Below, piece after piece: positions 11,553 through 45,839 of a stretch of 64,000 bases of DNA. The notes under the pieces are model-generated. The model did no database searches, was not told the DNA's origin, and was given only the letters and a program-made list of their open reading frames with translations. Position numbers and translations under genes: made by a program. Positions within the stretch are counted from its first letter, which is position 1, and the number at the start of each line of letters is the position of its first letter. Source of the stretch: Neorhizobium huautlense (lineage in GTDB: Bacteria > Pseudomonadota > Alphaproteobacteria > Rhizobiales > Rhizobiaceae); the NCBI RefSeq assembly GCF_002968575.1, contig NZ_PVBM01000001.1:124001-188000 (forward strand). Direction: 5' to 3'.

Positions 11553-12874
11553 GTCACCTTTATGATCTCTGCAACAAGCATCGACGGATCATAGCGCTCC
11601 GGCGTCAGGCCAAGCCGCACGACCACAAGGTCGAGCGATGGAATGACGATGACGTTCTGTCCGTCATGGCCGTCCAGGATGAATGTATCGGCGGGCAGAC
11701 CCTTACCGGCGACCGGCAGCCAGGTCTGCATCCTGGAATAGCGGCCGTTCGAGGTCCGGTTCGGCTGGCGCATCGCTTCGACGAAGCCTTCCGGCAGGAT
11801 CCTGTTACCGTTCCAGACGCCGTCCCGCACCAGCAGCAGTCCCAATCGCGCCCAGTCCCACGCAGTCGCATACATGTAGGAGCTGCCGACGAAAGTACCG
11901 GTGGCATCGACCTCCAATACCGCGCTTGCCATTCCCAACGGTTCGAATAGCGCCTTTCGCGGATAGGCAAGCGCCGCTTTCTCTTCCAGCCGGCTCATCC
12001 ATATCCGGGAAAGCAGCACACCTGTGCCGGAGGAATAGTTGAAGCGGGTGCCCGGATCGGCCTCAAGCGGCTGATCCGCGGCAAAATTTGCCATATCGCT
12101 CTCAAGATAGAGCATCCGGGTCACGTCCGCGACCGTGCCGTAGTTCTCGTTGAACGCCAGGCCGCTCTCCATCGCCAGAAGGTCGCCGAGGCTGATGTCG
12201 GCACGCTGATCGTTTTGCCATTGCGGTAAGAGCCTTTTATCGTCCGCCGACAGCCGGCCGTCCCGCATCATCGTGCCGATGATTGCCGCAGTGACCGTCT
12301 TGGTCATAGACCACCCCAGAAGCGGCGTGTCCTTCGAAAACCCGGCAGAATAGGTCTCTCCTACGATACGCCCCCCCTTCACGACAACCACCGCCCGCAT
12401 GCCGGCTCCAATGAGATCATCGCGTGAAAGAAAAGGCGCAATTGCCGGATGGGATTCAATTTTTCCGCCCTCCGGCCAAAGGACAGTCTCATCGACGGGC
12501 GTCCGAATAGCCGATGCCGTTTCCACCCGCGGCAATGTTTCCCCATTCGGAGTGACAGTACACCCTAAGCCATCGCGATGGACGGCATCATTGCCGGCAA
12601 AAATGCCGAGCAGCGCGGCATGGACACGTCTTTCGGTCCGATCGACGGACACGTGCATCAGCTTGAGCAGCGGATGGCCCGGCGCCTGGACGTCGACCGC
12701 AAGCACCACGTCAGCGTCCTGTGCGGCGATGAAGACGTTCGAGCAGACGATTTTGGCGGCATAACCGCTTCCGACCCTCAGCAGTTCCGGCGGCATAACG
12801 TAAAGCCAGCCCGCAATTCCGGCGACACTGACCAGGACGGCACCAAAACAAATCTTCGCAATCCTGATCAACAA
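11540..12874 (-). CDS. Membrane-anchored serine hydrolase, class C beta-lactamase fold
   Basis: Penicillin-binding-protein-like hydrolase (444 residues). One N-terminal membrane helix (about 9-27) likely anchors it with the catalytic domain in the periplasm. The SxxK motif is SMTK (Ser189-Lys192), and a YSS motif (NYSSGTG) supplies the Tyr general base; a third HDGQN block near the end is consistent with the HxG position. Family members include esterases, D,D-peptidases and 6-aminohexanoate-dimer-hydrolase-like (NylB) proteins; the substrate cannot be set from sequence. It diverges from btaA. Confidence 0.87.
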   Translation of the reverse strand: MLIRIAKICFGAVLVSVAGIAGWLYVMPPELLRVGSGYAAKIVCSNVFIAAQDADVVLAVDVQAPGHPLLKLMHVSVDRTERRVHAALLGIFAGNDAVHRDGLGCTVTPNGETLPRVETASAIRTPVDETVLWPEGGKIESHPAIAPFLSRDDLIGAGMRAVVVVKGGRIVGETYSAGFSKDTPLLGWSMTKTVTAAIIGTMMRDGRLSADDKRLLPQWQNDQRADISLGDLLAMESGLAFNENYGTVADVTRMLYLESDMANFAADQPLEADPGTRFNYSSGTGVLLSRIWMSRLEEKAALAYPRKALFEPLGMASAVLEVDATGTFVGSSYMYATAWDWARLGLLLVRDGVWNGNRILPEGFVEAMRQPNRTSNGRYSRMQTWLPVAGKGLPADTFILDGHDGQNVIVIPSLDLVVVRLGLTPERYDPSMLVAEIIKVTAAP

Positions 12875-12978
12875 TCGCTTGGTCCCTCATCTTTTGCGCA
12901 TGCATGCAATCAGGATTCTCGCCCCCAAGGAAGCAGTTTTGCTGGCGCAGTGCCCGTTCTGTAGTTCAGCACAGGCCG

Positions 12979-12994
12979 CGTCATCAATCTGTTG
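12979..12994 (+). promoter_or_regulatory. Weak candidate PhoB box upstream of btaA
   Basis: CGTCA and TGTTG half-sites with a 6-base spacer roughly follow the TGTCA-N6-TGTCA direct-repeat form of rhizobial Pho boxes, about 50 bp before btaA. The second half matches poorly. Listed because btaA is known to be phosphate-regulated in Sinorhizobium. Confidence 0.25.
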
Positions 12995-13043
12995 CATGAT
13001 CGGGCTACACGCCCTGCAACTCTGGACTAGGCGGGACTCGATT

Positions 13044-14291
13044 ATGGCGGATATTGCTCAGGAAGCCGGTTTTCGGAAAAACAAGAAGCTCAAGGATGCG
13101 CTTCTGCAGCACAAGGCACTTTCTCGACAGGGTTTTTCAGAGAGGCTTTTCGGGCTGCTGTTTTCCGGGCTGGTTTATCCGCAGATCTGGGAAGATCCGG
13201 ATGTCGACATGGCGGCCATGGAACTGGCTGAAGAGCACTCGATCGTTACAATCGGTTCCGGCGGCTGCAATATGCTCGCCTATCTGTCCCGCGCGCCGAG
13301 GAAGATCGACGTGGTAGACCTCAATCCACATCACGTCGCTTTGAACCGCCTGAAACTGGCCGCCTTCCGCCATTTGCCGGGCCACGGCGATGTCGTACGC
13401 CACTTCGGCATGGACGGCGTTCGCTCCAACAGCACGAGCTACGACAAATTCGTCGCCCCGCACCTCGACACCGCCACGCGCGCCTATTGGGAGAAGCGGT
13501 CCCTCTCGGGCCGACGCCGCATCGGCGTCTTCAATCGCAACATCTACAGAACTGGCCTGCTCGGCCGCTTCATCGGCGCCGGCCATCTGATCGCCCGCTT
13601 GCACGGAACCGACCTTACCGAAATGGCGAATGCCCGCTCCCTGCGCGAGCAGCGGCAGTTCTTCGACCAGAAGATCGCTCCTCTGTTCGAAAAACCCCTG
13701 ATCCGCTGGATCACCAGCCGCAAGAGTTCGCTTTTCGGTCTCGGTATCCCGCCGCAGCAATATGACGAACTCGCAAGTCTTGCCGCCGACGGATCGATCG
13801 CGCCGGTGCTGCGCCAGCGACTCGAAAAGCTTGCCTGCCATTTCCCGTTGCGCGACAACTACTTTGCCTGGCAAGCCTTCGTACGCCGCTACCCAAAGGC
13901 GGAAGAGGGTACGCTGCCGACTTATCTGAAGGCGGAAAACTTTCAGATGATCCGCAAGAATGCCGATCGCGTCACGGTCCACCACGCGAGCTTTACCGAG
14001 CTTCTGGCGCGCAAGCCCGCGGCTTCCGTGGACCGTTACGTCCTGCTCGACGCTCAGGACTGGATGACGGATCAGCAGCTCAACGATCTCTGGACGGAAA
14101 TCGCCCGCACGGCAGCTTCCGGAGCCCGCGTGATCTTCCGCACGGCGGCTGAAAAGACCGTCCTTCATGGCCGGCTGGCGGCTGCGCTACTGGACCAGTG
14201 GACCTATCTGGAAGATCGATCGGCCGAACTGAACTTCCAGGACCGGTCCGCAATCTATGGCGGCTTCCATATCTACGTGAAAAAAGCCTGA
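13044..14291 (+). CDS. btaA: S-adenosylmethionine:diacylglycerol 3-amino-3-carboxypropyltransferase BtaA
   Basis: First step of diacylglyceryl-N,N,N-trimethylhomoserine (DGTS) synthesis: transfers the homoserine part of SAM to diacylglycerol. The 415-residue length and the SERLFGLLFSGLVYPQIWEDP block near the start are characteristic, as is a SAM-binding stretch around SIVTIGSGGCNMLAYL. I start at ATG 13044; the frame is open for 55 more codons upstream but those lack similarity. The stop overlaps the btaB start (TGATG), so both enzymes are made together. DGTS replaces phospholipids when phosphate is short. Confidence 0.95.
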   Translation: MADIAQEAGFRKNKKLKDALLQHKALSRQGFSERLFGLLFSGLVYPQIWEDPDVDMAAMELAEEHSIVTIGSGGCNMLAYLSRAPRKIDVVDLNPHHVALNRLKLAAFRHLPGHGDVVRHFGMDGVRSNSTSYDKFVAPHLDTATRAYWEKRSLSGRRRIGVFNRNIYRTGLLGRFIGAGHLIARLHGTDLTEMANARSLREQRQFFDQKIAPLFEKPLIRWITSRKSSLFGLGIPPQQYDELASLAADGSIAPVLRQRLEKLACHFPLRDNYFAWQAFVRRYPKAEEGTLPTYLKAENFQMIRKNADRVTVHHASFTELLARKPAASVDRYVLLDAQDWMTDQQLNDLWTEIARTAASGARVIFRTAAEKTVLHGRLAAALLDQWTYLEDRSAELNFQDRSAIYGGFHIYVKKA

Positions 14292-14959
14292 TGGCGCAGC
14301 AAATGACAAGCACGTCCCTCCCCGACGAGCATGCAGAGCGGATGGATCGGATGTACCGCTATCAGCGTCACATCTACGACGCCACGCGCAAATATTACCT
14401 CTTCGGTCGTGATCGGGCGGTAGAAGGACTGAACGTCCCGCCGGGAGCGACATTGCTGGAAGTCGGATGCGGAACGGGCCGCAATCTGTTGCTCGCTCAC
14501 CGGCATTATCCGACTGCCAAACTCTATGGCTTGGACATCTCCGCAGCGATGCTCGAAAGCGCCCGAGCGAATTTTCGCGGCAGAGCCGCTGAACCGAACT
14601 TCCAGGTGGCGGACGCCACGAATTTCAAGGCGGAGGAGTTCGGCAGGACGGGCTTTGACCGAATCCTGATTTCCTATGCGCTTTCGATGATCCCGAACTG
14701 GGAAGGTGCAGTCGATGCGGCCTTGGCCGCGCTTGCCCCGAACGGCTCGCTGCATATCGTCGATTTCGGCCAGCAGGAACGCTTGCCCGGCTGGTTCGGA
14801 CGGCTGCTGAAGGCTTGGCTGACGCGCTTCCACGTCACGCCTCGTGCGAACCTGCACGGTGTGCTGGAAAGCAGGCTTGCCGCAGCAGACGCCGACATGA
14901 TCTTCGAAGAGATCGGCTGGGGTTATGCGTGGCACGCGGTGATCCGCCGCCGCGGCTGA
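14291..14959 (+). CDS. btaB: Diacylglycerylhomoserine N-methyltransferase BtaB
   Basis: SAM-dependent methyltransferase that adds three methyl groups to diacylglycerylhomoserine to finish DGTS. The 222-residue protein has SAM motif I LLEVGCGTGRN near 55-65 and the RMYRYQRHIYDATRKYY start typical of BtaB. Translation begins at the ATG overlapping the btaA stop; a longer in-frame start would read back into btaA. It needs three SAM per lipid, on top of the SAM consumed by BtaA, so it draws on the methionine cycle encoded elsewhere in this window. Confidence 0.94.
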   Translation: MAQQMTSTSLPDEHAERMDRMYRYQRHIYDATRKYYLFGRDRAVEGLNVPPGATLLEVGCGTGRNLLLAHRHYPTAKLYGLDISAAMLESARANFRGRAAEPNFQVADATNFKAEEFGRTGFDRILISYALSMIPNWEGAVDAALAALAPNGSLHIVDFGQQERLPGWFGRLLKAWLTRFHVTPRANLHGVLESRLAAADADMIFEEIGWGYAWHAVIRRRG

Positions 14960-34314: not shown

Positions 34315-35460
34315 TTAAAAGCAGTCGAGGAAAAGCTCCCTGGTGTTCTCCATCGTCATCGTGACGGGATTGCCGCCGCAACTCGGGTCCTCCATCGCCA
34401 TGGCTGTCAGTTCATCGATTCGGTCGGACTTGATTCCCATGGCCGTAAGATTTTCCGGTACGCCGAGCTCGGAGCGCAGTGAAAGCACATAGTCGTAAAA
34501 ACCGCCGAACCCGCCGGCAATCCCCAGATAGGCGGCAGCGCGGGCGATCTTTTCCTCGATCGCCGGCCGGTTGAAACGCAGCACCGGCGGCATGACGACA
34601 GCATTCGTCATGCCGTGATGGGTATTGTAGACGGCGCCGATCGGGTGGGAGAGCGAGTGGATCGCGCCGAGCCCCTTCTGGAAGGCAACGGCGCCCATCG
34701 CGGCGGCCGACATCATATTGGTGCGCGCCTCGATATCAGTGCCATCCTTGTAGGCGCGCGGCAGGAATTCCTTTACGAGCCGCATCCCTTCGAGTGCTAT
34801 GCCCCCGGACATCGGATGGTAGAAAGGCGACGAATAGGCTTCCAGGCAATGGGCAAAGGCGTCCATTCCGGTGCCGGCGGTGATCGCCTTCGGCATACCC
34901 ATCGTCAGTTCCGGATCGCAGATGACGACGCCCGGCAGCAGTTTGGGGTGGAAAATGATCTTCTTCACGTGGGTGACCGAGTTGGTGAGCACCCCTGCCC
35001 GTCCGACCTCCGAACCCGTCCCGGCCGTGGTTGGCACCGCAACGATCGGTGCAATCTTCGAGGCATCGGCGCGGGTCCACCAGTCGCCGATATCCTCGAA
35101 ATCCCACACCGGTCGGGTCTGCCCGACCATGAAGGCAATCAGCTTGCCGAGATCGAGGCCCGAGCCGCCGCCGAATGCCACCACGCCATCATGGCCGCCG
35201 TCCTTATATGCCTTGATGCCGGCTTCGAGGTTTTTCTCGTTCGGGTTCGGATCGACATCGGCAAAGATCGCCCGGCCAAGACCTGCCTCTTCGAGAACGT
35301 CGAGGGCGTGGCCGGTGATCGCCATCGGAGCGAGTCCCCGGTCGGTGACGAGTAGCGGCTTCCTCAGACCCAGCGTCTTGCAGGCGTCCGCCAGTTCCTT
35401 GATGCGGCCGCGGCCGAGCTTGATGGCGGTCGGATAACTCCAGTTCGCGACGATATTCAT
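34315..35460 (-). CDS. Iron-containing (group III) alcohol dehydrogenase
   Basis: NAD(P)-dependent dehydrogenase of 381 residues. The nucleotide loop GGGSGLD (97-103) and metal ligands Asp200, His204, His268 and His282 are all present (GMDAFAHCLEAY, AIHSLSHPIGAVYNTHHG). Its start overlaps the aldehyde dehydrogenase stop by 4 bp (ATGA), so alcohol and aldehyde oxidation are made together. In this operon it most likely oxidises a gamma-glutamylated or free amino alcohol to the aldehyde; the operon inference is mine, the family call is firm. Confidence 0.92.
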   Translation of the reverse strand: MNIVANWSYPTAIKLGRGRIKELADACKTLGLRKPLLVTDRGLAPMAITGHALDVLEEAGLGRAIFADVDPNPNEKNLEAGIKAYKDGGHDGVVAFGGGSGLDLGKLIAFMVGQTRPVWDFEDIGDWWTRADASKIAPIVAVPTTAGTGSEVGRAGVLTNSVTHVKKIIFHPKLLPGVVICDPELTMGMPKAITAGTGMDAFAHCLEAYSSPFYHPMSGGIALEGMRLVKEFLPRAYKDGTDIEARTNMMSAAAMGAVAFQKGLGAIHSLSHPIGAVYNTHHGMTNAVVMPPVLRFNRPAIEEKIARAAAYLGIAGGFGGFYDYVLSLRSELGVPENLTAMGIKSDRIDELTAMAMEDPSCGGNPVTMTMENTRELFLDCF

Positions 35461-36842
35461 TTCGTGACCTTTTTCAGGTGATAGGATTTGGGACGGGTCA
35501 GGTTGTGGAAACCGAGGACGGAAAGCGAGCCGCCCCGGCCGGTTTCCTTGACGCCTGTCCAGACGAGCGCCGGATCGAGATAGTCGGCGCGGTTCATGAA
35601 CACAGTGCCGGTTTCAAGCTCCTGGCCGAGCCGGCCGGCGCGTTCGGCATCCTTTGTCCAGAGCGACGCGGTCAAACCATACTGGCTGTCGTTCATCAGG
35701 CCGAGCGCCTCTTCGTCGCTCTTGACCTTCATGATGCCGACTGCCGGACCAAAGGTTTCCTCCCGCATGAACGGCATGGAATGATCGACATCGACGAGGA
35801 TCTGTGGAGCGAGATAGGCGCCGCCATCATCGGCCGGAAAGAGTTTCGGATCGATCAGTGCCTTGGCCCCCTTGGAGACGGCGTCGGCGATCTGTTCGCG
35901 CACCACCTTGGCGAAACGTTTGTTCGCCATCGGACCCAACGTCGTTTCCGTGTCCAGAGGATTGCCGAGCTTGTAGTTGGAAACCCAGGCGACCGACTTC
36001 TCGACGAACCGGTCGTAAAGCGATTCGTGCACATAGATACGCTCGATGCCGCAGCAGCACTGGCCGGAATTGTAGGTGGCGCCATCCATCAACACGTCGA
36101 CGGCCGCATCGAGATCGGCATCCTCCATGACGTAACCGGGATCCTTGCCACCAAGTTCGAGGCCGAGGCCGGTGAACGTGCCGGCGGCGGCGCGCTCGAT
36201 CGATCGACCGCCTTCGACGGAGCCGGTGAAGTTGATGAAGTTGAAGAGTCCCTGCGAAATCAGCTTCGCCGTCGTATCGTGATCCAGGAAGAGGTTCTGG
36301 AAGACGTCTTCCGGCACACCCGCTTCGATGAAAGCGCGCACCAGGCGTTCACCGACCAGCAGCGTTTGGGAGGCATGTTTGATGACGACGGTATTGCCGG
36401 CCATCAACGCCGGCGCGACAGTGTTGATCGCCGTCATATAGGGATAGTTCCACGGCGCGATGACGAAGACGACGCCATGGGGCTCGCGCTCGATGCGCCG
36501 TTCGAATGTCGCGCTATCTTCGATCACCATCGGCTTTAGCGCATCGGCGGCGATCGACGCGACATAGTTCGAGCGTTCGTTGAAGCCCTTGAATTCGCCG
36601 CCATAACGGACCGGCCGACCCATCATCCAGGCAAGCTCCGGAACCACCTCGTCGGCCATCTCGTTCAGCCGCGCGACGCCTTTCAGCACCAATTGCACGC
36701 GCTCTTCGAGCGGCCGTTTCGCCCAGGCCTTCTGTGCATGCCGAGCCCGGCCGATCGCTTCCGCCGCCGCCTGCAGCGACATGGCCTCGCGCTCGGCATA
36801 AACCGAGCCATCCACCGGCGAGATACATTGGATCATCGTCAT
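35457..36842 (-). CDS. NAD(P)-dependent aldehyde dehydrogenase
   Basis: Aldehyde dehydrogenase superfamily, 461 residues, slightly short at the N-terminus. The catalytic Glu229 (LELGGKDPGYV) and Cys in GQCCCGIER (residues 261-269, three consecutive Cys) are in place; IAPWNYPY and NFTGSVEGG are cofactor contacts. The start ATG 36842 has GGGAAG upstream; ATG 36857 is also in frame but would sit on that ribosome site. Gene order GS-like, ALDH, ADH mirrors the chemistry expected for oxidising a glutamylated alcohol. Confidence 0.92.
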   Translation of the reverse strand: MTMIQCISPVDGSVYAEREAMSLQAAAEAIGRARHAQKAWAKRPLEERVQLVLKGVARLNEMADEVVPELAWMMGRPVRYGGEFKGFNERSNYVASIAADALKPMVIEDSATFERRIEREPHGVVFVIAPWNYPYMTAINTVAPALMAGNTVVIKHASQTLLVGERLVRAFIEAGVPEDVFQNLFLDHDTTAKLISQGLFNFINFTGSVEGGRSIERAAAGTFTGLGLELGGKDPGYVMEDADLDAAVDVLMDGATYNSGQCCCGIERIYVHESLYDRFVEKSVAWVSNYKLGNPLDTETTLGPMANKRFAKVVREQIADAVSKGAKALIDPKLFPADDGGAYLAPQILVDVDHSMPFMREETFGPAVGIMKVKSDEEALGLMNDSQYGLTASLWTKDAERAGRLGQELETGTVFMNRADYLDPALVWTGVKETGRGGSLSVLGFHNLTRPKSYHLKKVTK

Positions 36843-36883
36843 GATCTCACTTCCCATTACGTTTTTGATTTGTGCGGAGAGGT

Positions 36884-38263
36884 CTACACCCTCTCGAATC
36901 CGCGCGCCACTTCCCAATCTGTCACACGGCGGTCATATTCCTCCTGCTCCCAGTGAGCCGCCCGCACATAGTGGTCGATCACTTCGTCGCCGAAGGCGGT
37001 GCGAAGCAACTCGGAACCGTGCAGCAGATGGGTCGCGTCGCGCAGGGTTTTCGGGATTTCCCTGATGTCCTTGCCGGCATAGGCATCCCCGACAAAGGCC
37101 GGCTCGAGCTCCATCTTCTTCTCTATTCCGTCGATGCCGGCCGCAAGCAGCGCCGCCATGGCGAGATAGGGATTGAGGTCGGAGCCGCCGACGCGGCATT
37201 CGACCCGGATCCCGCGGGTAGCCTCGCCGCAGAGCCGGTAGCCAGCGGTGCGATTGTCTTTCGACCAGACGGCCTTGGTCGGCGCGAAGGTTCCCGCCAT
37301 GAAACGCTTGTAGGAATTGATATAGGGCGCCAGGAAATAGGTGATCTCGCTTGCATGGTTCAGCAGACCGGCCACGTAATGCTTCATGACCGAAGACATG
37401 CCGTATTCACCGTCCTTGTCGTGGAACAGCGATGTCTTGCCGTCGGCGCTCCACAGGGATTGGTGAATATGGGAGGAACTGCCGGCTGCGCTGTAATTCC
37501 ATTTTGCGAGAAAGGTAATGGCTTTGCCCTTCGCCCAGGCGATCTCCTTGGCCGCATTCTTGATGATCACGTGCCGGTCGGCCATGGTCAGAGCATCGGC
37601 GTAACGCACGTTGATTTCTTCCTGGCCGGGAGACGCTTCGCCTTTGGAATTTTCGACGGGAATGCCGGCCCCTTGCAGGCCGGTGCGGATCGCCCGCATC
37701 ACCTCCTCCTCCTTGGTCGTCTGGAAGATGTGATAATCCTCGTTATAGGCGCTTGCCAGCTTGAGATTGCGGTAGCCGCTCTCGCGTGCGCTGTCATAGG
37801 TCTGGTCGAACAGGAAGAACTCCAATTCGGTTGCCATGAAGGCCTTCATGCCCATGGCTTCCAGGCGCTTTACCTGCTTCTTCAGGATGGCGCGCGGCGA
37901 ATGCGGCACCTCCTCATGGGTATGATGATCAAGCACGTCGCAGAGGACCAGCGCGGTGCCTTCCAGCCAGGGCAGTTTCCTCAGCGTCGAAAGATCCGGC
38001 TTCATGGTGTAGTCGCCGTACCCCTTTTCCCAGCTGGACGCCTTGTAGCCTGGGACAGTCTCCATCTCGATGTCAGTGGCGAGCAGATAATTGCAGCTGT
38101 GGGTCTCTTCGTAAGCGCTCGCGACGAAATATTCTGCCTGGAACCGCTTGCCCATCAGGCGGCCCTGCATGTCGACCAAAGCAGCGATAACGGTGTCGAT
38201 ACGGCCTTCGGCTACATCGCGCTTCAAATCGTCGAAAGAATAGTTGGCGGTCATGCCCTGCAT
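36884..38263 (-). CDS. Glutamine-synthetase-family gamma-glutamyl-amine ligase
   Basis: GS-fold ATP ligase of 459 residues, in the PuuA/GlnA4-like branch rather than assimilatory GlnA. ATELEFFLF and the ASPGQEEINVRYADAL, WNYSAAGSSSHIHQSLW, NRTAGYRL and RVGGSDLNPYLAMAALLAAG blocks show an intact ligase core. Members join glutamate to putrescine, spermidine, ethanolamine or other amines. Given the ethanolamine-type permease and an alcohol dehydrogenase in place of an amine oxidase, I infer an amino-alcohol substrate such as ethanolamine. ATG 38263 (AGGA four bases ahead) or ATG 38254 may be the start. Confidence 0.88.
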   Translation of the reverse strand: MQGMTANYSFDDLKRDVAEGRIDTVIAALVDMQGRLMGKRFQAEYFVASAYEETHSCNYLLATDIEMETVPGYKASSWEKGYGDYTMKPDLSTLRKLPWLEGTALVLCDVLDHHTHEEVPHSPRAILKKQVKRLEAMGMKAFMATELEFFLFDQTYDSARESGYRNLKLASAYNEDYHIFQTTKEEEVMRAIRTGLQGAGIPVENSKGEASPGQEEINVRYADALTMADRHVIIKNAAKEIAWAKGKAITFLAKWNYSAAGSSSHIHQSLWSADGKTSLFHDKDGEYGMSSVMKHYVAGLLNHASEITYFLAPYINSYKRFMAGTFAPTKAVWSKDNRTAGYRLCGEATRGIRVECRVGGSDLNPYLAMAALLAAGIDGIEKKMELEPAFVGDAYAGKDIREIPKTLRDATHLLHGSELLRTAFGDEVIDHYVRAAHWEQEEYDRRVTDWEVARGFERV

Positions 38264-38328: not shown

Positions 38329-39828
38329 TCAGGCGAGCGAAGCCGCTTGCTTGTGTTCCATCGCAAACTCCTCTTCCGGGGAGAGGATCAGGCGGTGGCG
38401 GCCGACGAATGCGAAATAGGCAATCGCGATCGCAAACCAGATGACGACCCAGAGCACGCCCTTGGTGAAGTTCGGATCCTGGATCTGGTAGAGCAGCGTG
38501 ACGATGGCAATGATGATCGTCAACACCGCCCCCGGGATACCCAGCGGCGAGCGGAAAGGCCGTTCGATATTCGGGAGCTTCTTGCGCAGGATGATGAACG
38601 AGATCGCCTGCATGATGTAGGAGAACATCGCCCCGAACACTGCCATGTTGAGAAGCACGCTGCCAATGATGCTGCCGCCCTGCTCCGCACCGAGCGCGAA
38701 CCAGATCACGAGCATCACAGCAAGGCCGACGACGGAACCGGTGATCATCGCCACATACGGTGTCTTGTAGACCGAATGGGTGACGGACAGTACCGTCGGG
38801 AAATAGCCGGCGCGAGACAGCGAATAAACCTGCCGCCCCTGCGCGTAAAGGATCGTGTGGAAGCTCGCGATGAGGCCGGTCAGCGCCACGAGGCCGAGGA
38901 TCACCACGCCGCTATCGCCGTATACTGCCTTGAACCCGTCGAGCAGCGGTTCCAGCGACGAGCCGAGATGGAACGAGCCGACGCCCGGCACGGACGGATT
39001 GAGCAGGACGATCATGAAGGCGGAGACCATTAATGTCACCATGCCGAGGATAATACCCTTCGGCATGTCCCGCTTGGGATCGACGGATTCTTCGGCCGCC
39101 AGCGGCAATTGCTCAATGGCGAGGAAGAGCCAGACGGCGAAGGGAAGCGTGGCAAGCACGCCGGAAAAGCCGAAGGGGAACCATTCGCCGTTGCCTTCCG
39201 GCAGTTCGACGGCTGCCCCGTCCGGTCCCACGCCGATATTCAGCGCCCAGCGCGAGAAATCCATGCTCGGAATTGCGCTGATCCAGAAGAACACCAGAAC
39301 CGCCAGCGAAAGAACGGTGATGACCAATGTCACCTTGAACGACAGTTCCAGCCCGAAGACATTGAGAGCGAGAAAGATCGCGTAGAAGATCATCCACACG
39401 AGCGGCGAATAGGCCGGATCAAGTCCGAGGATCGAATTCACATAGGCCGTGATGAATGTCACGATAACCGCTGGCGTCAGCACATATTCGACATTTTCGC
39501 AGAGCCCGGTGATGAAGCCCCCCCAGGGCCCCATGGCCGTGCGGGCGAAGGAATAGGCCGCGCCCGTGTGTGGCAGCGCCGGGCTCATCTCGGCAATCGA
39601 GAACGTGAGGCCGAGATACATCACCGCGATGATGATGCCCGCAACCAGCATGCCACCCCAACCGCCGGTCGCAAAACCGAAGTTCCAGCCGGAAAAGTGT
39701 CCGGAAATGACCGCTCCGACGCCGAGCGCCCAGAGCGACCATACGCCCGCATAGCGGGAGAGCCCGCGCTTTTCGAAATAGGAAGCGTCTGCCTTCTTAT
39801 AGCTGACGCCCGCAGATGAATTTTCCAT
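38329..39828 (-). CDS. APC-superfamily permease, ethanolamine-permease type
   Basis: Inner-membrane transporter of 499 residues with about twelve helices. The N-terminal stretch YFEKRGLSRYAGVWSLWALG, GHFSGWNFG and AEMSPALPHTGAAYSFARTA followed by GPWGGFITGLCENVEYVLTP are strongly like the ethanolamine permease subfamily of APC transporters. No eutBC (ammonia-lyase) genes are present here, so ethanolamine, if that is the substrate, must be processed another way, fitting the glutamylation route. It lies 65 bp upstream of the GS-like gene. Confidence 0.85.
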   Translation of the reverse strand: MENSSAGVSYKKADASYFEKRGLSRYAGVWSLWALGVGAVISGHFSGWNFGFATGGWGGMLVAGIIIAVMYLGLTFSIAEMSPALPHTGAAYSFARTAMGPWGGFITGLCENVEYVLTPAVIVTFITAYVNSILGLDPAYSPLVWMIFYAIFLALNVFGLELSFKVTLVITVLSLAVLVFFWISAIPSMDFSRWALNIGVGPDGAAVELPEGNGEWFPFGFSGVLATLPFAVWLFLAIEQLPLAAEESVDPKRDMPKGIILGMVTLMVSAFMIVLLNPSVPGVGSFHLGSSLEPLLDGFKAVYGDSGVVILGLVALTGLIASFHTILYAQGRQVYSLSRAGYFPTVLSVTHSVYKTPYVAMITGSVVGLAVMLVIWFALGAEQGGSIIGSVLLNMAVFGAMFSYIMQAISFIILRKKLPNIERPFRSPLGIPGAVLTIIIAIVTLLYQIQDPNFTKGVLWVVIWFAIAIAYFAFVGRHRLILSPEEEFAMEHKQAASLA

Positions 39829-39958: not shown

Positions 39959-40735
39959 TTATCTTGGGATGTCTGCGAGACTTTCCCGCAGCAGTCCTGT
40001 CAAGAAATCGGCCGCGACCCCCTGGCCGGTTTCGTCTGCAATCAAATCGTTTCTCACCTCGATCATCACATTGAGCAGCCCCGCGGGCAAAGCGTGAACT
40101 TCAAGCGTGTGGGTGACGCCATCGGCTGGTCCATAGGGCTCGTTGCGCTCGACCCGATAGAGATGAGTATCGGAGGCTGCCTTGAGCATCCGATCCGCAA
40201 GACGGCTGTCCGCATCGTGCAGAATGCCGATCTCGACCGGACGCGCCTTGCCGAAATAGACGGGCGTGAAACTGTGGACCGTGACCAGCACGCTCGCCTG
40301 ACCCCTTGCCCGCCTGGCGGCGATCTCTTCCCGAATGCGGCCGTGGAACGGCATGTAGAGCGCCGTGGTGCGCCGGGACTTTTCGGCATCGGAAAGGTTT
40401 TCGTTGCCCGGAATGCGAAAGACTTCCGAAACATCGCGCATCGCCGCAGGCGAGTCCGGCGGACGGTTGCAGTCATAAATGAGGCGGGAGAAGCGCTGGT
40501 GGATGAGCGTGGCATTAAGCCCCTTTGACATCAATCGCGCAACGGCAAGCGCGCCCGGATCCCACGCGATGTGGGAAGCGAGCGCCTCCTCCGGCAGACC
40601 GAGATTGCCGTAACGTTCAGGCAAACGCCGCGAGGCATGCTCGCAGATCAATAAGACCTCACCCTTGCCGCAGGCATTTTCCACGGCAACGGGTTCACCG
40701 TCCGCCGCCGTGAAAAATTCCGATTGGACCAGCAT
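39959..40735 (-). CDS. N-formylglutamate-amidohydrolase-family hydrolase
   Basis: Metal-dependent amidohydrolase of the FGase (PF05013) family, 258 residues. The ICEHASRRLPERYG block near the start, a HIAWDPGA segment, the DCNRPPD stretch and VTVHSFTPVYFG are family landmarks. Known members cleave N-formyl-glutamate in histidine breakdown, but no hut genes are nearby. In this operon it could instead release glutamate from a gamma-glutamyl conjugate at the end of the pathway. The start MLVQSEFF at 40735 is preferred; the frame is open to 40942 but that covers the promoter and regulator start. Confidence 0.85.
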   Translation of the reverse strand: MLVQSEFFTAADGEPVAVENACGKGEVLLICEHASRRLPERYGNLGLPEEALASHIAWDPGALAVARLMSKGLNATLIHQRFSRLIYDCNRPPDSPAAMRDVSEVFRIPGNENLSDAEKSRRTTALYMPFHGRIREEIAARRARGQASVLVTVHSFTPVYFGKARPVEIGILHDADSRLADRMLKAASDTHLYRVERNEPYGPADGVTHTLEVHALPAGLLNVMIEVRNDLIADETGQGVAADFLTGLLRESLADIPR

Positions 40736-40773
40736 GGAAGGCTTCCCGCGAAATTTGAGTAAAATCGACCCAA

Positions 40774-40829
40774 GAAGAGAATTCTTCACTTTTTGATGAT
40801 CGTCAACGTGAAACTGAAAAATTCTCTTC
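40774..40829. promoter_or_regulatory. Long-spaced inverted repeat in the divergent control region
   Basis: GAAGAGAATT (40774-40783) is repeated perfectly inverted as AATTCTCTTC (40820-40829). The two arms lie between the catabolic operon and the RpiR-type regulator, where an autoregulating repressor would bind both promoters. A TTGACT element at 40842-40847 may be the regulator's -35. Confidence 0.55.
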
Positions 40830-40907
40830 AAACGAGCCGTTGACTTCTCTCCAGAAACAATCGTTAATCCTGTCATAAACCGGCGAAGACCGGAGGGAAC
40901 AGCTTTC

Positions 40908-41795
40908 GTGCCACCAACAGCACGCACCGTATCGGATGTCATTCGTCGTCGTTACGACGGGCTGACGCGTGCGGAAAAACAGTTGGCGGACAGCTTATTG
41001 GAGAATTATCCCGTGTCGGGGCTGGGCAGCATCACGACGATCGCGGAAAACGCCGGCGTCTCGACGCCGACTGTTGCACGCATGGTGCAGAAACTCGGTT
41101 ACAAGGGTTATCCGGAATTCCAATCCCACCTTCACCAGGAGCTGGAAGAGACGATCTCCAATCCGATCGCCAAGCACGACCGCTGGGCCTCCAATGTGCC
41201 CGGAACCCATATCCTGAACCGCTTTGCCGAGGCCATCACCGCAAACCTGCGTGATACCCTTTCGGATTTGGATACCCGGACGTTTGAGGGGGCCGCCGCG
41301 CTGCTCAAAGATCGGGAGCGAAGCATCTACTTCGTCGGCGGCCGCATCACCGGTTCGCTGGCGGAATATTTCTTCACCCACATGCAGGTCATCCGCCCGA
41401 AAACGACGTTGATCACCAACAATTCCAGCTCCTGGCCGCAGCACGTGCTCAACATGAACGCGGGCGACATCCTGGTGATTTTCGATATCCGCCGTTACGA
41501 GCAGGAGATGGCGACGCTGGCAGAGGCCGCCAGGGCCAATGGCGTCGTCATCATCTTGTTTACCGATGTCTGGGCCTCGCCGGTCGCCCAGCAGGCACAG
41601 CACATATTCAAGGTGCGTACCGAGGCTCCTTCCGCGTGGGATTCGTCCGTCGTCACGCTCTTTGTTGTCGAAGCTCTGATCGAGGCGGTTCAAAACGCCA
41701 CATGGGAGGAAACCCGCGAACGCATGAATTCTCTTGAGGGCCTTTTCGAACGGAGCCGCCTCTTCCGCAGACCGGGCCGTCAGAGCTTTTCTTGA
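40908..41795 (+). CDS. MurR/RpiR-family transcriptional regulator
   Basis: Regulator of 295 residues. An N-terminal HTH_6 domain (about 10-80, TIAENAGVSTPTVARMVQKLGYKGYPEF) is followed by a SIS sugar/phospho-ligand domain (about 130-265). Starts at GTG with GGAGGG ten bases ahead. It is divergent from the FGase-permease-GS-ALDH-ADH operon and is followed in the same direction by an ABC importer 139 bp downstream, so it may control both. RpiR proteins of this clade usually sense phosphosugars, but several non-sugar catabolic clusters use them. Confidence 0.9.
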   Translation: MPPTARTVSDVIRRRYDGLTRAEKQLADSLLENYPVSGLGSITTIAENAGVSTPTVARMVQKLGYKGYPEFQSHLHQELEETISNPIAKHDRWASNVPGTHILNRFAEAITANLRDTLSDLDTRTFEGAAALLKDRERSIYFVGGRITGSLAEYFFTHMQVIRPKTTLITNNSSSWPQHVLNMNAGDILVIFDIRRYEQEMATLAEAARANGVVIILFTDVWASPVAQQAQHIFKVRTEAPSAWDSSVVTLFVVEALIEAVQNATWEETRERMNSLEGLFERSRLFRRPGRQSFS

Positions 41796-41934: not shown

Positions 41935-43038
41935 GTGCTCAACAAGACCCAACGTCTTCTTTCGATGACGACCGCGATCGTCGTCGCTTCGGCCAGCCTT
42001 GCAGCCGCCGAGCCGAGCGCCGAACTGATTGCTGCCGCAAAGAAGGAAGGAACGCTCACCACGATCGCGCTGCCCCACAGCTGGTGCGGTTACGGCGACG
42101 TGATCGCCGCGTTCAAGACCAAATACGGGATCGAGGTCAACGAACTGAACCCCGACGCCGGTTCCGGGGACGAAATCGAAGCCATCAAGGCCAACAAGGG
42201 CAACAAAGGCCCGCAGGCTCCCGACGTGATCGACGTCGGCCTTTCCTTCGGACCGTCGGCAAAGGCTGAAGGCCTGCTCATGCCCTATAAGGTCTCGACC
42301 TGGGACAGCATCCCCGATAGCGCCAAGGATGCCGAAGGCTACTGGTACGGCGATTATTACGGCGTCCTCTCCTTCGTCGTGAACACGGACATCGTCAAGG
42401 ACGTGCCCAAGGACTGGGCCGACCTGAAGAAGTCGGAGCTGGCAAATTCCGTAGCGCTTGCCGGTGACCCGCGCGCCTCCAACCAGGCCGTCCAGGCCGT
42501 TTATGCGGCTGGATTGGCAGCAGGCGAAAAAGACGCGGCCAAGGCTGGGGAAGCCGGTCTCTCCTTCTTCGCGGAAGTCAACAAGGCCGGCAACTTCGTG
42601 CCCGTTATCGGCAAGTCCGCCTCGCTCGCCCAGGGATCGACCCCGATCGTGATTGCCTGGGATTACAACGGTCTTTCCTGGCGCGACAGCCTCAAGGGCA
42701 ACCCGCCGGTCGAGGTCGTGGTCCCGGCTTCGGGCGTCGTGGCCGGCGTTTACGTGCAGGCGATTTCGGCTTTCGCTCCGCATCCAAACGCGGCAAAGCT
42801 CTGGATGGAGCATCTTTATTCGGACGAAGGTCAGCTTGGCTGGCTGAAGGGTTACTGCCACCCGATCCGCTTCAACGATCTTGCCAAGAACAACAAGATC
42901 CCGAAGGCGCTTCTCGACGCGCTGCCGCCGGCTGCAGCCTATGAAAAGGCTGTTTTCCCGACGCTCGATGAACAGGCCGCAGGCAAGGCCGCCATCACCA
43001 CCAAGTGGGACAGCGTTGTCGGCGCCAACGTCAAGTAA
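41935..43038 (+). CDS. ABC transporter substrate-binding protein (family 1)
   Basis: Periplasmic binding protein of 367 residues with a signal peptide (1-25, cleavage after ASLAAA). The fold resembles the Fe3+/polyamine/phosphonate-type group I binders; HSWCGYGD, VIDVGLSFG and YYGVLSFVVN are characteristic of a rhizobial subgroup of unknown ligand. TAGGAGG lies seven bases before the GTG start. It is the first gene of a complete importer whose neighbours suggest an amine-containing ligand. Confidence 0.88.
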   Translation: MLNKTQRLLSMTTAIVVASASLAAAEPSAELIAAAKKEGTLTTIALPHSWCGYGDVIAAFKTKYGIEVNELNPDAGSGDEIEAIKANKGNKGPQAPDVIDVGLSFGPSAKAEGLLMPYKVSTWDSIPDSAKDAEGYWYGDYYGVLSFVVNTDIVKDVPKDWADLKKSELANSVALAGDPRASNQAVQAVYAAGLAAGEKDAAKAGEAGLSFFAEVNKAGNFVPVIGKSASLAQGSTPIVIAWDYNGLSWRDSLKGNPPVEVVVPASGVVAGVYVQAISAFAPHPNAAKLWMEHLYSDEGQLGWLKGYCHPIRFNDLAKNNKIPKALLDALPPAAAYEKAVFPTLDEQAAGKAAITTKWDSVVGANVK

Positions 43039-43051
43039 TCTTGCGATCCCC

Positions 43052-43077
43052 GGTCTTCCCGCCTATGCGGGAAGACC
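43052..43077 (+). other. Perfect 11-bp hairpin between binding-protein and permease genes
   Basis: GGTCTTCCCGC / GCGGGAAGACC with a CTAT loop lies in the 66-bp gap. No T tract follows. Such structures commonly protect the upstream mRNA 3' end or attenuate read-through so that the binding protein is made in excess over the membrane subunits. Confidence 0.8.
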
Positions 43078-43104
43078 TCCCTTCCTGCGAAAGACCTCCG
43101 CATC

Positions 43105-43980
43105 ATGAGCGCCGCAACGACGTCCTTTATCGACCGCCGCACTGTCGTCGACTGGCTCGGCATCGTTCCGTTCATGATCTTCGCATTGATGTTCCTGATC
43201 ATTCCGACGCTTTATCTGGTGATGGGGGCATTCTTTACCCCTGACGGCCAGTTCACCTTCAGGAACATCGCCGACCTCTTCACGCCGTCCATCATCAGCG
43301 CCTACTGGATCAGCATCAAGGTCTCCGTCGCCTCTTCGCTCGGAGGCGCGCTGATCGGCTTCTTTCTTGCCTGGGCAATCGTGCTCGGCGGCGTCCCCTC
43401 CTGGGTGCGCTCCGGGCTTTTGACCTTTTCCGGCGTTGCGTCCAATTTTGCGGGGGTTCCCCTTGCCTTCGCCTTTCTCGCCACCCTCGGGCGAACCGGC
43501 CTTGTCACGGTCCTGTTGCGGGACTGGCTGGGCTTCAATCTCTATTCCACCGGCTTCAATATCCTGTCCTTCTTCGGGCTGACCATCACCTACATGTTCT
43601 TCCAGATCCCGTTGATGGTGCTGATCCTGACGCCGGCCCTCGATGGCATGAAGAAGGAATGGCGCGAGGCTTCGGAAATACTCGGGGCTTCCACATGGCA
43701 ATATTGGCGCATGGTGGCGCTGCCCATCCTCTGGCCGAGCCTGATGGGTACGACGCTTCTTCTTTTTGCAAACGCGTTTGGAGCGATCGCGACCGCCTAC
43801 GCCCTCACCGGCTCCTCGCTCAATATCGTGCCGATCCTGCTCTACGCGCAGATCCGCGGCGACGTCTTGCACAACGCCAATCTCGGTTATGCGCTGGCGC
43901 TCGGCATGATCGTCATCACCGGCATCTCCAATCTCCTTTACATCCTGCTGCGCATGCGCGCTGAACGGTGGCAGAAATGA
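43105..43980 (+). CDS. ABC transporter permease (first subunit)
   Basis: Inner-membrane permease, 291 residues, about six helices. The EAA loop is in the segment WREASEILGASTWQYWRMVALPILWP. Resembles PotB-type (spermidine/putrescine) permeases. The stop codon overlaps the next start (ATGA), so both permeases are translated as a pair. No clear ribosome site precedes its ATG, consistent with the hairpin just upstream tuning its expression. Confidence 0.9.
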   Translation: MSAATTSFIDRRTVVDWLGIVPFMIFALMFLIIPTLYLVMGAFFTPDGQFTFRNIADLFTPSIISAYWISIKVSVASSLGGALIGFFLAWAIVLGGVPSWVRSGLLTFSGVASNFAGVPLAFAFLATLGRTGLVTVLLRDWLGFNLYSTGFNILSFFGLTITYMFFQIPLMVLILTPALDGMKKEWREASEILGASTWQYWRMVALPILWPSLMGTTLLLFANAFGAIATAYALTGSSLNIVPILLYAQIRGDVLHNANLGYALALGMIVITGISNLLYILLRMRAERWQK

Positions 43981-44765
43981 AGACGCAGAAGATACTGGCC
44001 TGGATCGCCATCGCCATCGGCGTCATCTACTTCTTCGTTCCGCTGATCGGCACCTTCGAATTTTCGCTGCGCATGCGGCGCGGCGAATATTCCACCGACG
44101 CTTACCAGTCCGTCTTTTCGGACATGCAGTTCCGGGAGACCTTCGGCTTTTCGATGGTGATGGCGCTGCTCACCATCATCTTCGGAATGTTGCTCGTCGT
44201 GCCGACCGCCTACTGGGTGCGGCTGCGTCTGCCTCAGATCCGCCCGGTTATCGAATTCATTACGCTGCTGCCGCTCGTCATCCCTGCGATTGTCATCGTC
44301 TTCGGTTACCTGAGGCTCTACAATTCATCGTCCTGGATACCCTTCACGGGCTCCACATCCGGCACCAATGCGCTGCTGGTATTGTCCTATATAACGCTCT
44401 CCCTGCCCTACATGTACCGTGCGGTGGATACCGCCATGCGCGCCATCGATGTGAGGACGCTGACCGAGGCAGCGGAAATTCTGGGGGCCAAGTGGCCGAC
44501 CATCATGCTTCGCTGCATATTCCCCAACGTGATGTCGGGTGTGCTCTCGGGGGCCTTCATCACCTTTGCGATCGTCATGGGCGAATTCACGATGGCCGCC
44601 CTTCTCAATCGCCCGGCCTTTGGACCTTACCTGCAGCTCGTCGGCGCCAACAAGGCTTATGAGCCTGCGGCCCTCGCCGTTATCGCATTTGCGATCACCT
44701 GGCTATCGATGGGGCTCCTTCAGCTCGTTTCCCGTTTCAGCAAGATGGCACCCTCCCGGCCATAA
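43977..44765 (+). CDS. ABC transporter permease (second subunit)
   Basis: PotC-like permease of 262 residues with six helices; the EAA loop is around RTLTEAAEILGAKWPTIMLRCIFP. I start at ATG 43977, overlapping the preceding stop; three further upstream codons are also in frame but unsupported. Forms the heterodimeric channel with the preceding permease. Confidence 0.9.
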   Translation: MKTQKILAWIAIAIGVIYFFVPLIGTFEFSLRMRRGEYSTDAYQSVFSDMQFRETFGFSMVMALLTIIFGMLLVVPTAYWVRLRLPQIRPVIEFITLLPLVIPAIVIVFGYLRLYNSSSWIPFTGSTSGTNALLVLSYITLSLPYMYRAVDTAMRAIDVRTLTEAAEILGAKWPTIMLRCIFPNVMSGVLSGAFITFAIVMGEFTMAALLNRPAFGPYLQLVGANKAYEPAALAVIAFAITWLSMGLLQLVSRFSKMAPSRP

Positions 44766-44777
44766 GGAATTCCTCGC

Positions 44778-45839
44778 ATGTCTTTCCTCGTCCTTGACAA
44801 CATCAAGAAGAGTTTCGGTCAGACGCAGGTCGTCAAGGACTTCAACATGTCCATCGAGAAAGGCGAATTCGTTTCCTTTCTCGGACCGTCCGGCTGCGGA
44901 AAGACGACGGTGCTGCGCATGATCGCGGGTTTCGAAAACCCGAGCGACGGCACGATTTCCATCAACGGCAAGAACCAGAACCGCCTCAAGACCAATCAGC
45001 GCAACATCGGCATGGTTTTCCAGGCCTATGCGCTTTTCCCCAACATGAACGTCTTCGACAACGTCGCCTTCGGCCTCAAGGTCGCCGGCAAGCCGAAAGA
45101 GGAAATCGAAACCCGCGTGAAGGAGATGCTTGCCCTGATCCGGCTCGACCATCTTGCCGACCGTTACCCCTATCAGATGTCGGGCGGCCAGCAGCAGCGT
45201 GTCGCGCTTGCCCGCGCGCTTGCCCCAAAACCCCAGGTCCTGCTCCTCGACGAACCTTTGTCCGCGCTCGATGCAAAGATCCGCGTCTCGCTGCGCGAGG
45301 AAATCCGCCAGATCCAGCGGCAGCTCGGCATCACCACGGTATTCGTCACCCACGACCAGGAAGAAGCCCTGTCGATCTCGGACCGCATCGTTGTGATGAA
45401 CGCCGGCCGCGCCGAACAGATCGGCACGCCGTCGGAAATCTACAACCGACCGAACACCCGTTTCGTCGCCTCCTTCGTGGGTACGCTTAACATCATCGAG
45501 GCGACCGTCGCCGATCCGTCCGCCAATACCGTCAAGGTGGGCGACAATACGGTGAGACTGCGCGAACCGATCGGCGCATTGAACGTAGACGACAAGATTT
45601 CGATCGCGCTTCGTCCAGAAGCCGGTTCTCTCTCGGAAAGCGCCAAGGGAGACACTGCGATCGTCGGCAAAGTCATCTCTTCGCATTTCCTGGGGTCGGT
45701 GATCCGCACAAAAATGGATGTTGGCGGCAACCAGATCTCCTTCGACATGTTCAATGCCCCGGACGCCGTATTGCCGCAACCGGGCGAAGTACTGACCCTT
45801 CGCTTCTCGTCAGGAGATTTCCTGATCGTCAGGGACTGA
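44778..45839 (+). CDS. ABC transporter ATP-binding protein
   Basis: Energising subunit of the importer, 353 residues. Walker A GPSGCGKTT (36-44), the Q loop VFQAYALFPNMN, signature MSGGQQQRVALARAL, Walker B VLLLDEPLSALD and the switch His in FVTHDQEEAL are intact. A C-terminal TOBE-like domain (about 240-353) places it with PotA/UgpC/FbpC-type importers. AAGGAATT nine bases before ATG; 12 bp after the second permease gene. Last gene of the importer operon. Confidence 0.94.
   Translation: MSFLVLDNIKKSFGQTQVVKDFNMSIEKGEFVSFLGPSGCGKTTVLRMIAGFENPSDGTISINGKNQNRLKTNQRNIGMVFQAYALFPNMNVFDNVAFGLKVAGKPKEEIETRVKEMLALIRLDHLADRYPYQMSGGQQQRVALARALAPKPQVLLLDEPLSALDAKIRVSLREEIRQIQRQLGITTVFVTHDQEEALSISDRIVVMNAGRAEQIGTPSEIYNRPNTRFVASFVGTLNIIEATVADPSANTVKVGDNTVRLREPIGALNVDDKISIALRPEAGSLSESAKGDTAIVGKVISSHFLGSVIRTKMDVGGNQISFDMFNAPDAVLPQPGEVLTLRFSSGDFLIVRD

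Follow-up and report, generated by a model that had tools for sequence, protein, structure and literature searches.

An N-formylglutamate amidohydrolase family protein of Neorhizobium huautlense as a probable gamma-glutamylglycine amidohydrolase of an ethanolamine glutamylation operon

What does an enzyme of the N-formylglutamate amidohydrolase (FGase) family do in an operon that has no genes of histidine utilization? The question is raised by a gene of Neorhizobium huautlense located in the window, i.e. the whole 64,000-nucleotide stretch of DNA that was analysed here, which is part of contig C58 of a 5.7 Mb genome. Database names assign the enzyme to histidine degradation. A first-pass annotation of the window had suggested that it may be a gamma-glutamyl amide hydrolase with a new specificity.

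The minus strand of the FGase interval (Table 1) is open for 258 codons followed by a stop, and the plus strand of the interval contains stop codons. The family assignment made in the first-pass annotation was confirmed: the protein matched the FGase model PF05013 with 150.3 bits (E 1.2e-43, cut-off 28.9). PF05013 was the sole domain found; PF07722, the domain of PuuD-type gamma-glutamyl hydrolases (class I glutamine amidotransferases), was absent from the protein. A longer listed reading frame, extending to 40942, would overlap the divergent RpiR gene beginning at 40908. Position 40735 is the likely start, because residue 1 of the crystallised homologue 2ODF aligns with residue 1 of the protein started there. 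The nearest FGases among the matches listed were 93 to 80% identical and came mostly from Neorhizobium and Rhizobium records. A chance reading frame was also considered, and it is ruled out by synteny, since 79 of the 80 related loci compared (best 80 of 578 matches) have the operon.

Table 1. Positions of the genes and proposed operators around the FGase gene in the window.
Feature	Position	Strand	Basis
Iron-containing alcohol dehydrogenase; proposed gamma-glutamylethanolamide dehydrogenase	34315..35460	-	profile search
Aldehyde dehydrogenase; proposed gamma-glutamyl-aminoacetaldehyde dehydrogenase	35457..36917	-	profile search
Glutamine-synthetase-like ligase; proposed ethanolamine gamma-glutamylase	36884..38263	-	PF00120
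APC-type permease, probable ethanolamine permease	38329..39828	-	TIGR00908 369.9 bits, cut-off 381.75
FGase-family protein, 258 aa; proposed gamma-glutamylglycine amidohydrolase	39959..40735	-	frame, PF05013, clade, residues, fold
Proposed RpiR operator, copy 1	40773..40788		one mismatch to TGAARANNNNTYTTCA
Proposed RpiR operator, copy 2, 42 bp from copy 1	40815..40830		exact match to TGAARANNNNTYTTCA
RpiR-type regulator (HTH_6 + SIS), divergent from FGase	40908..41795	+	profile search
ABC transporter, four genes	41935..45839	+	profile search, synteny
ABC binding protein	41935-43038	+	
ABC permeases	43105-43980 and 43968-44765	+	
ABC ATPase	44778-45839	+	

As the first-pass annotation had stated, the FGase gene is the first gene of a glutamylation operon. 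It heads five co-oriented genes and is followed by those of an APC permease, a glutamine synthetase (GS)-like ligase, an aldehyde dehydrogenase (ALDH) and an iron-containing alcohol dehydrogenase (Fe-ADH). The permease falls just below the curated cut-off of the ethanolamine permease model TIGR00908. The best solved relatives of the ligase were 11zs (683 bits) and 5dm3 (656 bits), the latter of which we take to be a protein of C. salexigens. The true start of the ALDH is probably near 36842. The binding protein of the ABC transporter showed remote likeness to 2-aminoethylphosphonate binders; its solved relatives, of which 5t1p was the best (199.5 bits), yielded no ligand. A search of the whole Neorhizobium genome did not find EutB.

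The absence of a hut context, which had been pointed out from the sequence, was borne out at the level of the genome. The window FGase failed the HutG model TIGR02017 (26.5 bits vs. a cut-off of 278.75), whereas the HutG of the same genome passed it with 379.4 bits. The gene of this HutG is located in a hut cluster on another contig (C80), directly after the gene of histidine ammonia-lyase. Both PF00221 matches of the genome are on that contig, and histidine ammonia-lyase is absent from the window. The accompanying statement that FGases normally sit in hut operons was, on the other hand, too strong: of the four PF05013 genes of this genome just one belongs to a hut operon, and of the two that remain besides the window gene, one is near a pyruvate kinase gene and the other is away from hut genes. 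At one of the loci studied (L087, 8743-9705) an FGase-family gene lies near pyruvate kinase. Related genes occur in many genomes of the class, and the L087 product did not match the HutG model.

Synteny was examined in the best 80 of 578 confirmed FGase matches. RpiR is divergent from the FGase gene, and is adjoined by an ABC binding-protein gene, in all 80 of these loci; the GS-like ligase, ALDH and Fe-ADH genes follow in 79, the exception (L050) being cut by a contig end. What varies is the slot between FGase and GS: among the 79 loci with GS in this sample it is occupied by the APC type of the window in 9, by a second APC type in 59 and by a three-gene TRAP transporter in 10, and is empty in 1. 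The TRAP binding protein of one locus (L010) matched 4UAB, presumably the ethanolamine-binding protein of C. salexigens, with 552 bits. The transporters are thus swapped around a fixed set of enzymes, and therefore one common substrate, ethanolamine, is suggested. Plasmids of Paracoccus and Marinovum carry the same gene set with the TRAP transporter. On a plasmid of Aminobacter aminovorans (L180), the RpiR/FGase-GS-ALDH-FeADH set stands directly before bhcR-bhcA-bhcB (11842-14735). The genes of the beta-hydroxyaspartate cycle (bhc) use glycine and glyoxylate, and their location here fits glycine as the product of the operon. This plasmid was typed as conjugative. Some loci contain a gene for a small helix-turn-helix-like protein between ligase and ALDH (L006, 11923-12441; L012, 11934-12434).

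The region between FGase and RpiR contains the dyad TGAARANNNNTYTTCA, a putative operator through whose two copies the RpiR regulator would govern the operon. When up to one mismatch was allowed, 79 of the 80 loci (best 80 of 578) had one copy or more and 77 had two; the mean of the shuffled control was 0.004 per stretch. It must be noted that these 80 loci had also served to derive the pattern. In 14 other RpiR-FGase stretches, which include the closely related S. meliloti locus L184, the operator was matched in 12 at up to two mismatches and in 7 at up to one, and 1 to 17 of 200 shuffles per stretch matched at two mismatches. One of four FGase stretches without RpiR had a two-mismatch match. 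The operator pair is the sole match in the 64 kb of the window, 3 of 100 shuffles having as many. At one mismatch, none of the 80 loci (best 80 of 578) had the operator in front of the ABC transporter.

To place the enzyme within its family, a quick tree was calculated from 118 FGase rows of the class and of plasmids, labelled by context or best match. Every third of the 80 close loci was taken (27, the other 53 being left out), and FGase matches with internal stops (L119, L127, L157) were dropped. In this tree 36 operon-bound and three Ti/Ri-type FGases formed one clade (SH-aLRT 99), and 12 hut-type rows were separate and far from it (SH-aLRT 99). The Ti/Ri-type FGases were nested in the ethanolamine clade here as well as in a second tree made from a further subset (63 rows).

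A comparison of active-site residues with HutG2 had been recommended in the first-pass annotation. In a residue table prepared without three long-branch rows (L123, L153, L162), each group, the hut-type included, had H33, D59, R84, D88, N90, R91, R122, H154 and E226 conserved in 91 to 100% of its rows, thus the catalytic set is common to operon members and HutG. By analogy with related zinc hydrolases, H33, D59 and H154 may be metal ligands and E226 the base. In contrast, E32, P60, D205-G206-V207 and M224 were kept in the operon clade, but were replaced by other letters or gaps in the HutG rows.

The predicted model of the FGase (pLDDT 93, pTM 0.91) matched 2ODF with Z 40.9 and an rmsd of 1.0 over 252 aligned residues, and 2q7s with Z 22.6. 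The first solved folds beyond the FGases were the poly-gamma-glutamate hydrolases 3a9l (Z 12.9, rmsd 3.2, 176 aligned) and 5onj (Z 12.6, rmsd 3.1, 169 aligned), a match just slightly better than the rest, because cell-wall amidases and carboxypeptidases came next at Z about 11 to 12. The proximity of the predicted fold to enzymes cutting gamma-glutamyl amides may thus lend mild support to the hydrolase reading. 2ODF, whose entry name is hypothetical protein, is Atu2144 of Agrobacterium tumefaciens. It is 62% identical to the window FGase, has the same fold, and at the aligned positions carries the same clade-specific letters as the operon FGases. Three of its four best matches among the loci (L056, L060, L079; 68-69%) are copies of the window operon, two of them from Agrobacterium.

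We propose, with a probability of roughly 0.85 and judging from gene content and order, clade membership, residue conservation, the predicted fold and the operator pattern, that the FGase is a metal-dependent gamma-glutamylglycine amidohydrolase acting in the last step of an ethanolamine gamma-glutamylation pathway. In this pathway ethanolamine would be imported by the permease and coupled to the gamma-carboxyl of glutamate by the GS-like ligase at the expense of ATP. The Fe-ADH would then oxidize the alcohol to the aldehyde and the ALDH would yield gamma-glutamylglycine, whose gamma-amide would be cut by the FGase-family enzyme, with glutamate returned and glycine released. The suggestion of the first-pass annotation that the enzyme is a gamma-glutamyl amide (gamma-glutamylglycine) hydrolase thus stands as the most likely one.

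Three other interpretations have to be weighed against this proposal. The enzyme could be a genuine N-formylglutamate deformylase (HutG2-like), present in the operon by chance; its PF05013 membership and the catalytic residues common with HutG would agree with that. We give almost no credence to this idea: the window FGase scores far below the TIGR02017 cut-off and belongs to a separate clade, the genome has its own HutG in a hut cluster elsewhere, and glutamylation genes are tied to FGase in 79/80 loci (best 80 of 578). On the first three of these observations the plain HutG reading was rejected. It is also conceivable that the operon degrades another amino alcohol (e.g. alaninol or 3-aminopropanol) and that the FGase cuts the gamma-glutamyl amino acid corresponding to it. 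The ligase and dehydrogenase families concerned can have broad specificity, and the score of the permease just below the ethanolamine cut-off would be in line with such a substrate. However, the TRAP transporter that can take the place of this permease has a binding protein matching 4UAB, and that of the same slot in Phaeobacter binds ethanolamine with a Kd of 7.9 uM according to the available part of PMC10132767, which makes another amino alcohol highly improbable.

The third alternative concerns the bond that is cut. If the FGase were a proof-reading or salvage amidase, it would hydrolyse gamma-glutamylethanolamide and free ethanolamine, instead of acting on gamma-glutamylglycine. In the window the ligase step would then be part of a futile cycle and the two dehydrogenases would have no purpose, and the copy beside the bhc genes points to glycine, thus we regard this activity as very unlikely, even though some members of the clade would suit it. 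Those on Ti/Ri/opine plasmids adjoin eutBC, which consumes free ethanolamine (EutB in 13/13 records), and have neither ligase nor dehydrogenases next door; moreover, in three genomes the FGase is accompanied by an ethanolamine-type TRAP transporter, and a ligase is absent.

The distribution of gamma-glutamylation genes was studied in a class sample of 192 genomes, with ligase orthologues accepted at E up to 1e-120 and operon-type FGases defined by at least 194 bits and a context of RpiR and transporter or ligase. The ligase orthologue was found in 26/192 genomes and the operon-type FGase in 11/192. Eight genomes had both, on one contig in seven and at two contig ends in G128. An operon-type FGase is therefore not required wherever the ligase occurs, being present in 8 of the 26 ligase genomes only. 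In the 18 ligase genomes without operon-type FGase, both dehydrogenases were nearby in 6, Fe-ADH only in 7 and neither in 5. A PuuD-type substitute for the FGase was considered for these genomes but found no support: PF07722 was found in none of the 18 within 9 kb on each side of the ligase, contig ends permitting. Conversely, 3 of the 11 genomes with operon-type FGase (G001, G033, G141) have RpiR-FGase-TRAP without ligase, and G001 and G033 had no ligase above 34% identity. At L145, L161 and L221 the RpiR-FGase-TRAP genes had neither ligase nor dehydrogenase genes as neighbours, and the ligase orthologue was not found in the genomes of these loci. One further FGase, the twelfth with such a score (G045, L121), represents another lineage, which has a different GS-like ligase.

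This separate lineage, in which FGase is accompanied by another GS-like ligase and an isochorismatase-type protein, was found at L121, L146, L156 and L230, and on a Klebsiella plasmid (L228), where the FGase occurs with a ligase, an APC permease, an aminotransferase and an isochorismatase-type protein. Together these loci may represent a further, apparently unassigned glutamylation pathway. When GS-like neighbours were sought in the class sample (four queries, E up to 1e-10, within about 7 kb), they were found near 4 of 44 fetched low-scoring FGases (L121, L146, L156, L158) and near none of 16 fetched high-scoring ones. At a Mesorhizobium locus (L231) FGase-ALDH-FeADH genes without adjoining ligase lie beside sarcosine oxidase genes. 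On Ti/Ri/opine plasmids the FGase gene was seen directly upstream of eutB-eutC (L179, 9001-12045; L185; L186; and ten further records). An FGase sharing 76% identity or more with that of pAoF64/95 was present in 13 plasmid records, and all 13 had an EutB at least 95% identical directly downstream. The three Ti/Ri-type plasmid loci that were examined have a divergent amidase and a peptide-type ABC transporter alongside FGase, and no ligase.

The related lineages hint at a wider use of the FGase family on gamma-glutamyl amides. A rather speculative extension, which we consider less probable than not by a good way, is that the non-hut FGases of this branch form a general gamma-glutamyl-amide hydrolase kit that was recruited more than once: in the ethanolamine operon, in the GS/isochorismatase lineage (G045, G013, G029, Nitratireductor and Klebsiella plasmids), and in a Ti/Ri/opine-plasmid lineage, which might import ethanolamine in an already conjugated form, perhaps as an opine-like compound not yet described, and then release it. 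In the portions of the literature covered by our search there was nothing on point about the eutB link of Ti plasmids, or about isochorismatase or opine in connection with FGase. If the extension were true, gamma-glutamyl amides would be what many 'N-formylglutamate amidohydrolases' hydrolyse, and the genes adjoining them (isochorismatase/GS sets, eutBC on Ti/Ri plasmids) would point to amine substrates for which our literature search found no assignment. For the window enzyme itself, correcting the assignment to histidine degradation would complete the rhizobial route for ethanolamine, by which the nitrogen and carbon of membrane-lipid headgroups would be recycled. The value of this is that of a useful re-labelling more than of a discovery.

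It is instructive to compare the window FGase with known systems. It has the PF05013 family and the catalytic residue set in common with HutG, from which it differs by failing the model and by its clade and operon. The chemistry would also be common: both enzymes would hydrolyse an amide to which an alpha-amino acid contributes the amine (Glu in formylglutamate, Gly in gamma-glutamylglycine), and the acyl group would differ, being formyl for HutG and gamma-glutamyl for the window FGase. That the specificity would be new, as the first-pass annotation had supposed, is not supported, because PF05013 proteins of ethanolamine operons have already been assigned as gamma-glutamylglycine amidohydrolases in earlier papers (PMC9397018, PMC6529630; GGAH in PMC10132767). 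Since this role is in print for C. salexigens and Phaeobacter, the gamma-glutamyl idea is probably right, although not new. In the two papers on the ethanolamine gamma-glutamylation pathway of Chromohalobacter salexigens and Streptomyces coelicolor, hydrolysis of gamma-glutamylglycine by a member of the formylglutamate-amidohydrolase family was proposed (PMC6529630) and PF05013 is listed for this step in C. salexigens (PMC9397018); the ligase, Fe-ADH (PF00465), ALDH (PF00171) and PF05013 hydrolase listed for C. salexigens are as in the window. The S. coelicolor pathway has a short-chain dehydrogenase, unlike the Fe-ADH of the window; one passage names its orf5 a glutamine amidotransferase, whereas the discussion refers to the FGase family (PMC6529630). 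The closest parallel in gene order is the Phaeobacter operon, described in the available part of PMC10132767 as containing RpiR, GGAH (gamma-glutamylglycine amidohydrolase), EtoVWX, ligase and two dehydrogenases. Its proteins rose on phosphatidylethanolamine, and it was described as a close relative of genes that had been demonstrated in C. salexigens, where Csal_0678 is named as the ethanolamine-binding protein, and in A. tumefaciens C58. In Phaeobacter sp. MED193 GGAH is adjoined by RpiR and followed by transporter, ligase, ALDH and ADH in the same order as in the window, but the slot holds a TRAP transporter, whereas the window has an APC permease and, beyond RpiR, a second transporter of the ABC type.
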